From an uncultured Roseibium sp. (GTDB lineage Bacteria > Pseudomonadota > Alphaproteobacteria > Rhizobiales > Stappiaceae), in assembly GCF_947494555.1 (NCBI RefSeq), contig NZ_CANLVF010000003.1, positions 620,001 to 684,000 of the forward strand: a DNA stretch of 64,000 nucleotides, written 5' to 3'. Position numbers and translations under genes: made by a program. How positions within the stretch are numbered: position 1 is the stretch's first letter; the number at the start of each line of letters is the position of its first letter. Positions 55,390 to 57,169 of this stretch are shown piece by piece. Under the pieces are notes generated by a model that was not told the origin of the DNA, did not search any database, and saw only the letters and a list, made by a program, of their open reading frames with translations.

Positions 55390-55902
55390 TCAGGTGACCG
55401 GAGCGCGGTAATCGTCGGATGCGCTTGTGCCGGCAACTTCGTGGGTCCACTCGCACTTGCGGTAGGTGAAGGAGAACTGGTCGATGTCACCACGCGAGGC
55501 GTTGGCTTCGTCGTTGACGTCCGGAAGGATCGTCTTGCCTTCAACAAGAACCGCGTCGATGAACTTGATCGTGTAGTAGTGCTCCTGAACGCCGGCTGTG
55601 GACGTGCGCCAGAACTCGACTTCGATTTCGAGCGCTTCACCGGTGGCAAGCGCCTGCCAGAAGAGCGGGGTTGCCTTGTCGACCGGCTTGACGAAAGTCG
55701 TCGGCAGGTGGCGGCGTGTTGCGATGATGGAACCGGACTGCGGGTCACGCGGTACGACTGCGTTCTGTTCCAGGGCGTAGACCAGGGACTGGCCTTCATG
55801 GCCTTCCTGCCACAGGTTGCCGATGCTGTCGCCTGTGGTTGCGTCTGCGGTTATGTCGCCTTGGGTTGCGCCTGTGGCTTTCAGGTATGCGATATTGGAC
55901 AT
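55390..55902 (-). CDS. hcp: Orphan Hcp (type VI secretion tube protein)
   Basis: Forms the hexameric rings of the type VI secretion inner tube and can carry effectors. ATG 55902 follows AGGAGATCAAA and gives 170 residues. The signature features are MSNIAYLKATGATQGDITAD, WQEGHEGQSLVYALEQNAVVPRDPQSG, EHYYTIKFIDAVLVEGKTILPDV and the C-terminal FSFTYRKCEWTHEVAGTSASDD. There is no long C-terminal effector extension. No other type VI gene is in the window, so it is an orphan copy. Upstream lie a sigma-54 promoter, a dyad and a CRP-like site. Confidence 0.92.
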   Translation of the reverse strand: MSNIAYLKATGATQGDITADATTGDSIGNLWQEGHEGQSLVYALEQNAVVPRDPQSGSIIATRRHLPTTFVKPVDKATPLFWQALATGEALEIEVEFWRTSTAGVQEHYYTIKFIDAVLVEGKTILPDVNDEANASRGDIDQFSFTYRKCEWTHEVAGTSASDDYRAPVT

Positions 55903-55989: not shown

Positions 55990-56005
55990 TGCAACGGGTG
56001 TGCCA
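55990..56005 (-). promoter_or_regulatory. Sigma-54 promoter of hcp
   Basis: On the minus strand TGGCACACCCGTTGCA: the -24 GG and -12 GC are exactly ten bases apart and both flanking blocks match the TGGCAC-N5-TTGCA consensus. Predicted start near 55980, giving a leader of about 80 bases before the hcp ATG. Confidence 0.8.
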
Positions 56006-56080
56006 GTTTGCCGATTTTTCGACAAGATATTGAAAAATATGAAGATATTTTATTTTTGCGGCTCATTAACGACCATGTCA

Positions 56081-56100
56081 CTGTGCAGATTTCTGCACAG
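56081..56100. promoter_or_regulatory. 20-bp dyad at enhancer distance from the hcp promoter
   Basis: CTGTGCAGATTTCTGCACAG: nine-base arms (CTGTGCAGA / TCTGCACAG) with two bases between. It lies about 100-120 bases upstream of the predicted transcription start, the usual place for a sigma-54 activator (bacterial enhancer-binding protein) site. The direct repeat AGCTGCGGCTAAGCTGCG follows at 56099-56116. Confidence 0.6.
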
Positions 56101-56137
56101 CTGCGGCTAAGCTGCGAGAAAACACGCGCAGGTCCGG

Positions 56138-56153
56138 TGTGACGAACATCACA
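56138..56153. promoter_or_regulatory. Perfect CRP/FNR-type site (TGTGA-N6-TCACA)
   Basis: TGTGACGAACATCACA matches the CRP consensus half-sites exactly with six bases between. It lies about 160 bases upstream of the predicted hcp start and 108 bases after the stop of the upstream hydroxylase gene. A CRP-family regulator or, less likely, a second activator dimer could bind. Confidence 0.6.
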
Positions 56154-56260: not shown

Positions 56261-57169
56261 TCAGGCCGGATCTGCCGGTTTTTCAGTCTCGGGAAGGTCT
56301 GGCGTTCCGCTCTTTGAACGAAACGCGGTGCGAAGCCCGGCTCTTGCCTGACGGCTCCACTCGGCAAATGGATAGAGAATGAGTTTTACAACGTCGTTCT
56401 GGGGCACGTCGTGGACACCGAACGGTTCTTTGCAGGGTCCAGGCACGTAGTAGGTCCCGAACATGAGATCAAACACCGGGAAGACGTTTGCCAGGTTCTT
56501 GCCATACGCCTCCGGCAGGTCGGCGTGGTGCCACTGGTGCATACGCGGCGAGGCAAGGACGTATTTGAACGGGCCGTGCCCCCAGTCCACGTTGATGTGC
56601 ACATACATGTTATGCAGGGTCAGAAGGATCGCGCCGTATCCCATGATGTCGGTCGGGAACCCCAGCCAGCTGAGCAGAAGGATATAGGACGTCGTCATGA
56701 CCAGCGATTCCAGAAAGTGGATCCGGTAGCTCGTCAGAACGTTGAGGTCTGGATCGGAATGATGGATCGCATGGATCGGCCAAAGCCACCGATGGTGCAG
56801 GATCCGGTGGTTCCAATAGTCCGCAAAATCATAGCAAACGGCGGCAAAGGGAACGAGAAGCCACCAGGGAATGCCGGACCATACGGCCTCATCAATGCTT
56901 GGAATGCCCAAAGTGTCATAGGCCTGCTTCACATAGCCGGCTGTCAGGAACACGATCGGAGCAAACAGCAGGTTAACCCACCAGAACCCGACATTGGCGC
57001 CGACGCTTCGGATCAGGCGGCGGGGCCAGTTGAACCTGTAACCGCGCCGGTGCAGATCGAAAATGAGCACGGCAAAAGCAAATGCCAATGTCGCCGCAAA
57101 CGAGACGCTGTAGACCCGTGTTGTAACGAGTAGCTCGAAAAATTCGTATATCCTGCCGACGAAGTCCAA
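56261..57169 (-). CDS. Sterol desaturase / fatty acid hydroxylase family membrane protein
   Basis: Di-iron membrane enzyme, 302 residues with about five membrane segments. The three histidine clusters are HRILHH (121-126), HAIHH (133-137) and HQWHH (211-215), which hold the iron pair. Bacterial members hydroxylate or desaturate lipids such as ornithine lipids, hopanoids or carotenoids; the substrate is not determinable. It is divergent from xerC. The 91 bases after its stop lead into the hcp control region on the same strand, so read-through into hcp cannot be excluded. Confidence 0.85.
   Translation of the reverse strand: MDFVGRIYEFFELLVTTRVYSVSFAATLAFAFAVLIFDLHRRGYRFNWPRRLIRSVGANVGFWWVNLLFAPIVFLTAGYVKQAYDTLGIPSIDEAVWSGIPWWLLVPFAAVCYDFADYWNHRILHHRWLWPIHAIHHSDPDLNVLTSYRIHFLESLVMTTSYILLLSWLGFPTDIMGYGAILLTLHNMYVHINVDWGHGPFKYVLASPRMHQWHHADLPEAYGKNLANVFPVFDLMFGTYYVPGPCKEPFGVHDVPQNDVVKLILYPFAEWSRQARAGLRTAFRSKSGTPDLPETEKPADPA

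Follow-up and report, generated by a model that had tools for sequence, protein, structure and literature searches.

The stretch of DNA analysed here, referred to below as the window, comprises 64,000 nucleotides (positions 620,001 to 684,000) of contig NZ_CANLVF010000003.1 from an uncultured Roseibium sp. (G000:C3:620001-684000 in our numbering; the genome has 7.0 Mb in 22 contigs). It carries an orphan copy of hcp (tssD), the gene for the tube protein of the type VI secretion system (T6SS), a bacterial injection weapon; the gene is preceded by a sigma-54 promoter, a dyad, and a CRP-type site. These three motifs form a conserved promoter module. We consider it likely that the gene belongs to a dispersed hcp regulon in which one VasH-like activator, acting with RpoN, would serve the orphan copies as well as the copy in the T6SS cluster.

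The hcp gene of the window is encoded on the minus strand (55393–55902, stop codon excluded) and codes for 170 residues from an ATG start. Its product matches the TssD model TIGR03344 with 169 bits (cut-off 58.9) and also PF05638; the nearest solved chain is Hcp3 (3he1). A mechanical list of open reading frames places the start further upstream, at a TTG; the ATG is found at the corresponding position in all 38 copies that were compared.

An earlier note on this DNA, made from the letters alone, had described three upstream motifs. Direct reading and a pattern search recovered all of them as exact matches. The sigma-54 promoter (-24/-12 element TGGCACACCCGTTGCA; 55990–56005, minus strand) matches GG-N10-GC. 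Upstream of it are the main dyad CTGTGCAG-ATTT-CTGCACAG (56081–56100), which is the predicted site of the VasH-like activator, and the CRP-type site TGTGA-N6-TCACA (56138–56153). Between the latter two, column conservation revealed a second, weaker dyad (TGCGAG-N6-CGCGCA; 56113–56130), located 31 bp upstream of the main dyad.

Taken singly, the motif counts within the window are weak evidence against chance. With at most one mismatch, the sigma-54 pattern has 3 matches in 64 kb (2.7 expected) and the CRP pattern has 4 (1.8 expected); with at most three mismatches, the dyad has 1 match (0.29 expected). The sites upstream of hcp have no mismatch in any of the three patterns. Among 4000 random 450-base stretches of the window there were 424 sigma-54 hits, 59 CRP hits, no dyad hit, and no triple (thresholds of at least 9/12, 9/10, and 13/16, respectively). 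The array is regarded as more than chance because it is conserved, and on this ground and on the genome-wide counts a chance origin was rejected. In the whole 7.0-Mb genome, the exact dyad core TGTGCAG-N4-CTGCACA was found three times, as was the exact 16-base sigma-54 site, each time upstream of an orphan hcp gene.

The earlier note had taken the gene to be a lone hcp with no activator, which is incorrect. The genome has seven Hcp-family matches, four of which fall into the close family of the window copy: the orphans at C3:675393 (window), C1:914096, and C1:918989, and a copy at C6:47014. The four proteins are 98–100% identical. The T6SS cluster to which the C6 copy belongs also has genes for ClpV and for TagF-like, PP2C, protein-kinase, and VgrG-like proteins, and a sheath-family match is found about 20 kb away on the same contig. 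About 3 kb downstream of this hcp is the gene for a sigma-54 activator of VasH type with GAF, AAA+, and HTH_8 domains. The array is shared by the two further orphan copies and, in diverged form, by the cluster copy.

For a comparison across genomes, the 450 bases upstream of 38 hcp copies from 15 Roseibium-type genomes were collected. Comparison of hcp and activator positions classified 24 of these copies as orphan and 14 as cluster copies; the two copies of G011 were counted as orphans because neither is on the contig of its activator. Outside this set are G010 (hcp at a contig end, with no DNA upstream of it), G022 (a 40-residue relic), and a third match in G011 (88 residues). The sigma-54 site scores at least 9/12 in all 38 promoters. 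The CRP-type site reaches at least 9/10 in 35 promoters (perfect in 32), and the main dyad at least 13/16, likewise in 35 (perfect in 20). All three elements are present in 24/24 orphan and 10/14 cluster promoters. In these 34 promoters the spacing between the CRP-type site and the dyad is invariably 53 bp, and that between the dyad and the sigma-54 site is 93–97 bp. Loss of the motifs among close relatives had been named beforehand as a result that would refute the earlier note; they are kept, and its array is a conserved sigma-54-type promoter module with an enhancer-like dyad.

Ten near-identical promoters were dropped for a 28-row test of a further site (see below), and G009 was also dropped for the column and second-dyad tests (27 rows). 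In the 27 promoters, most motif columns carry 1.4–2.0 bits, some dyad columns 0.7–1.2 bits. Columns between the motifs range from 0.02 to about 1.3 bits, most of them below the motif columns. Part of this conservation between the sites is the second dyad, which has the same form as the main one; at the offset of 31 bp (about three helical turns) it scores a mean of 8.6/12, compared to 3.0 in mononucleotide shuffles (largest value 3.9).

Such conservation might merely reflect shared descent of recent copies, with no regulatory constraint. The three orphan copies are indeed alike over about 930–950 bp, promoter included, at 92–93% nucleotide identity; many of the promoters in the set are closely related, and conservation extends to some columns outside the motifs. 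Against this stand the contrast between the motif columns and those between them, which go down to 0.02–0.2 bits, and the fact that the window and cluster copies keep the layout although their nucleotide similarity is confined to 523 bp around the coding sequence. Shared descent is already disfavoured by these data, and we regard it as highly improbable.

The activator gene (L009:10514-12151) adjoins clpV and codes for a protein with GAF, Sigma54_activat, and HTH_8 domains. Among the best 25 of 28 matches, no NCBIfam model reached its cut-off for this protein, which is called VasH-type by its domain layout. With an E-value limit of 1e-100, a single match to the activator was obtained in each of 16 of 45 genomes of the genus, and these are exactly the genomes in which an hcp of the close family is present in full or nearly full length. 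A seventeenth genome, G022, has the 40-residue hcp relic, which is interrupted by stops (L039:1504-1620), and showed neither an activator match at this E-value nor an exact dyad core. As 39 of the 45 genomes have the sheath family PF05591, the pattern of activator and hcp is not simply that of any T6SS. A search across the class, which covered few near relatives (only four other genomes of the same order), matched one of 385 genomes, namely this one; among the matches listed, no more than three candidates were scored per genome. In an alignment of eight Roseibium-type activators, the GAFTGA motif is shared and the recognition helix is almost invariant.

The distribution of the dyad is more telling than the co-occurrence of activator and hcp. 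Across the 45 genomes there are 29 exact dyad cores, distributed over 12 genomes, and 28 of these cores are upstream of hcp; the reversed pattern, used as a control, was found at no place in these genomes. The 12 genomes are among the 16 with the activator, and none of the 29 genomes without it has the core. The one exception, a core with no hcp detected downstream of it (G024:C1:4635750-4635767), has a spacer that is not AT-rich.

A sister genus within the family (group g282) has hcp genes that allow a further comparison. As in Roseibium, there are several copies, sigma-54 promoters, and a related activator. The Hcp proteins are 42–46% identical to those described here, and two activators from there, which had been picked for lying 10–11 kb from an hcp, show 37% identity across the part that was aligned and differ in their recognition helix. 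Nine of the 14 hcp places, some of them close copies, were read for their promoters. The sigma-54 site scores 10–12/12 in these, whereas the CRP-type site never exceeds 7/10 and the TGTGCA dyad reaches at best 9/12 or 10/16. Another difference is an open frame that is common to the regions downstream of the four sister-genus hcp copies examined. This contrast of helix and dyad fits an activator that reads the dyad, short of proof. Several of the sister-genus promoters (L089-L093, L127-L130) have, at distances that vary, another palindrome (type GGCCA-TTTT-TGGCC), which might be the matching enhancer of that genus.

We consider it unlikely that the dyads are bound by some other regulator, be it a different sigma-54 activator or a protein of another family, in which case the sigma-54 promoter would be real and the signal a different one. 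Many other sigma-54 activator genes are present in the genome. In Pseudomonas aeruginosa, the sole clear Sfa2 peak is 2132 bp from the RpoN site (PMC8855297). The dyad distribution just described argues against another regulator, as does the lack of the dyad in promoters of the sister genus, whose two activators closest to hcp have a different helix. Furthermore, the arms of the dyad stand in the opposite order to those of the NtrC consensus, and the spacing of the dyad is unlike that of NifA. The arm order also bears on the nitrogen signal that the earlier note had suggested: nothing was found that points to nitrogen control or to NtrC, and this idea was dropped.

With respect to carbon or redox input, which had also been suggested, the site sequence and the set of regulators in the genome agree with the suggestion, and binding of a CRP-like protein is a prediction. 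Of the seven strongest Crp-type helix-turn-helix proteins, two (L072, L074) carry an R-E-N-V-x-R helix, which, by comparison with E. coli CRP, would predict recognition of TGTGA. One could go further and consider the CRP-type site as the main switch, used by CRP or by another regulator of that fold, so that the promoter would answer mainly to carbon or oxygen. The high number of perfect sites and the two CRP-like proteins would agree with this. The position of the site, about 158–173 bp upstream of the expected start, would not, nor would its score below 9/10 in the cluster promoters of G009, G015, and G029 and in the nine sister-genus promoters. In addition, sigma-54 promoters require an AAA+ activator. 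A CRP-driven promoter appears quite improbable to us, even though Hcp expression in Vibrio cholerae needs cAMP-CRP along with RpoN (PMC2726435).

A possible site for integration host factor (IHF) lies between enhancer and promoter (TTTCAATATCTTG; 56023–56035, minus strand; a weak match with 8/9 positions). In the 28 promoters, the pattern WATCAANNNNTTR scores a mean of 7.4/9 (15 orphan) and 7.9/9 (13 cluster), compared to 6.8 and 7.0 in mononucleotide shuffles, and its position varies. The best forward match is equidistant in 9 of the 15 orphan promoters, and the group score was reached by none of 500 mononucleotide shuffles. In Vibrio fluvialis, IHF helps expression and an IHF site is located upstream of the sigma-54 site (PMC5963220).

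The regulon that we favour would operate as follows. Several dispersed hcp copies feed, in this proposal, one T6SS. Sigma-54 RNA polymerase would wait in the closed state at TGGCAC-N5-TTGC. The VasH-like activator, with its GAF domain, its AAA+ domain containing GAFTGA, and its Fis-type helix-turn-helix, would be supplied from the gene near clpV, which is on another contig; it would bind the tandem dyads, 31 bp apart, and open the promoter. A DNA bend in the AT-rich spacer perhaps helps activation, and a CRP-like protein at the outer site may add metabolic input. Joint activation of the four hcp copies is probable. Since the cluster hcp shares its layout with the three orphans, one activator would raise the supply of Hcp from four loci as the machine is built.

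The evolution of the copies differs between promoter and coding sequence. In the promoter tree, which has some long branches, a single branch (support 94/100, not starred) separates the 24 orphan from the 14 cluster rows. The coding-sequence tree groups the copies by species group, and a tree with the orphans together is rejected (p-AU 0.0001; log-likelihood lower by 588). Over 167 ungapped codons, 12–27 synonymous codons and only 1–3 others distinguish the window copy from its three counterparts in the genome; between it and the orphan copies of G036 and G024, 38–42 synonymous codons and 24–29 others differ. The cluster promoter of G036 (L045) is a hybrid that has an enhancer of cluster type and a core of orphan type, the switch being about 110–130 bp before the start codon. 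The conflict between the trees, the codon differences, and this hybrid promoter suggest that the hcp copies evolve in concert by gene conversion. Recombination between copies probably helps to keep the four proteins alike, with each promoter type staying in place. Homogenisation of the coding copies is visible between species groups but is not complete. For instance, the cluster copy of G024 resembles the one in G019 (90.0%) more closely than the orphans of the same genome (87.2–89.2%). We recognised no report on gene conversion of hcp copies in the open literature, among the matches listed.

The sequence beyond the window copy, on its downstream side, has matches in G019, G035, G036, and G038. 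Since orphan positions are common to several species, recent transposition is not needed as an explanation. A mobile cassette was therefore rejected; no search for element ends was made.

A more far-reaching interpretation combines these points into a distributed supply of Hcp. Solitary hcp genes at old chromosomal positions would be driven through tandem-dyad enhancers by one T6SS-encoded activator; their coding parts would be homogenised occasionally by gene conversion, which would keep all tube subunits compatible, and orphan and cluster promoters would remain distinct to allow different expression. In that case, the tandem TGTGCA-N6-TGCACA dyad would be a defined enhancer for a VasH-type activator of alphaproteobacteria. 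This interpretation is put forward tentatively, and we are somewhat inclined to doubt it. It is weakened because the coding sequences of cluster and orphan copies stay apart in two species groups, namely within G000/G038 and within G007/G023/G033.

This separation of coding copies also counts against the regulon as such, and several other observations have to be weighed in the same direction. Four cluster promoters miss a threshold (G009, G014, G015, G029): G009, G015, and G029 have no good CRP-type site (below 9/10), and the dyads of G014, G015, and G029 are weak. A loose pair of dyad (at least 10/12) and sigma-54 site (at least 9/12) within 110 bases occurs at one place in the window, and five shuffled windows together gave one such pair as well. 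The co-occurrence of activator and hcp is partly automatic, because one hcp copy is usually in the same cluster, and in G011 no hcp was detected on the contig of the activator. There are 20 Sigma54_activat matches in the genome, a number of which belong to other ATPases (ClpV, for example), and other activators are thus possible. The IHF-like site is weak and not constant in position. Finally, the experimental precedents are all from gammaproteobacteria.

The surroundings of the orphan copies were inspected for other T6SS genes. Downstream of the window copy is a convergent gene for a putative transaldolase, as read from the translation only. The upstream neighbour is a fatty-acid hydroxylase gene (56261–57169), the product of which scores 80.7 bits with the model for the ornithine-lipid hydroxylase OlsE (cut-off 475). 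At C1:914096, the next gene is an opposed LysR gene. No vgrG or effector gene was seen beside the orphan copies examined (the window copy, C1:914096, and eight in other genomes). For the latter eight copies, none of nine downstream open frames, two of which overlap on opposite strands, matched a T6SS family, and three matched nothing. Two orphan hcp copies about 4.9 kb apart, with a LysR gene and others between them, are contained in L010:8900-14600; G036 has a single copy (L068), and the sequences on its two sides correspond to the outer flanks of this pair. A 9-base inverted repeat (55908–55916/55979–55987) connects the -12 region with the ribosome-binding site and was considered as an mRNA switch. 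This idea was dropped because the aligned G036 copies do not keep the repeat.

If the proposed regulon is real, it provides a concrete enhancer site for a VasH-type activator and extends the dispersed sigma-54 hcp regulon to alphaproteobacteria. The hcp gene would have been multiplied apparently without effectors, which would argue that the supply of the tube itself is increased. Through the disagreement of the promoter and coding trees, concerted evolution of a part of this weapon can be tested directly.

Previous work has established comparable designs in Vibrio and in P. aeruginosa. VasH and Sfa2, whose genes are in main clusters, activate orphan hcp clusters (PMC8855297, PMC10482370); activation of dispersed hcp by a main-cluster activator with RpoN is also covered by PMC9972734, which cites an interaction of the GAF domain of V. 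cholerae VasH with Hcp. V. cholerae, V. fischeri, and V. fluvialis share with the present case hcp promoters of sigma-54 type outside the main T6SS cluster and an activator encoded in that cluster; the IHF site upstream of the sigma-54 site in V. fluvialis and the dependence on CRP in V. cholerae may correspond to the weak IHF-like site and the CRP-type site described here. Differences are that the dispersed hcp genes of Vibrio are in auxiliary or hcp-vgrG clusters, whereas the orphans examined here are apart from other T6SS genes, and that no TGTGCA-N6-TGCACA enhancer is reported in the available parts of the Vibrio papers. In the H2-T6SS of P. aeruginosa (Sfa2/RpoN, orphan islands hcp2ABC), an activator from the core cluster likewise controls all copies. 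There, each hcp is followed by vgrG, and the repeats are not assigned to Sfa2, the peak of which is distant, as far as the available text goes.

Among the matches listed in the open literature, we recognised neither a report on the control of hcp in Roseibium, Labrenzia, or Stappia nor an enhancer sequence for VasH. The best fit is the VasH/Sfa2-RpoN design, which is known in kind from Vibrio and P. aeruginosa. The case described here is set apart from these systems by its apparently solitary orphan copies, its tandem dyad, and its conserved CRP-type site at a fixed distance.
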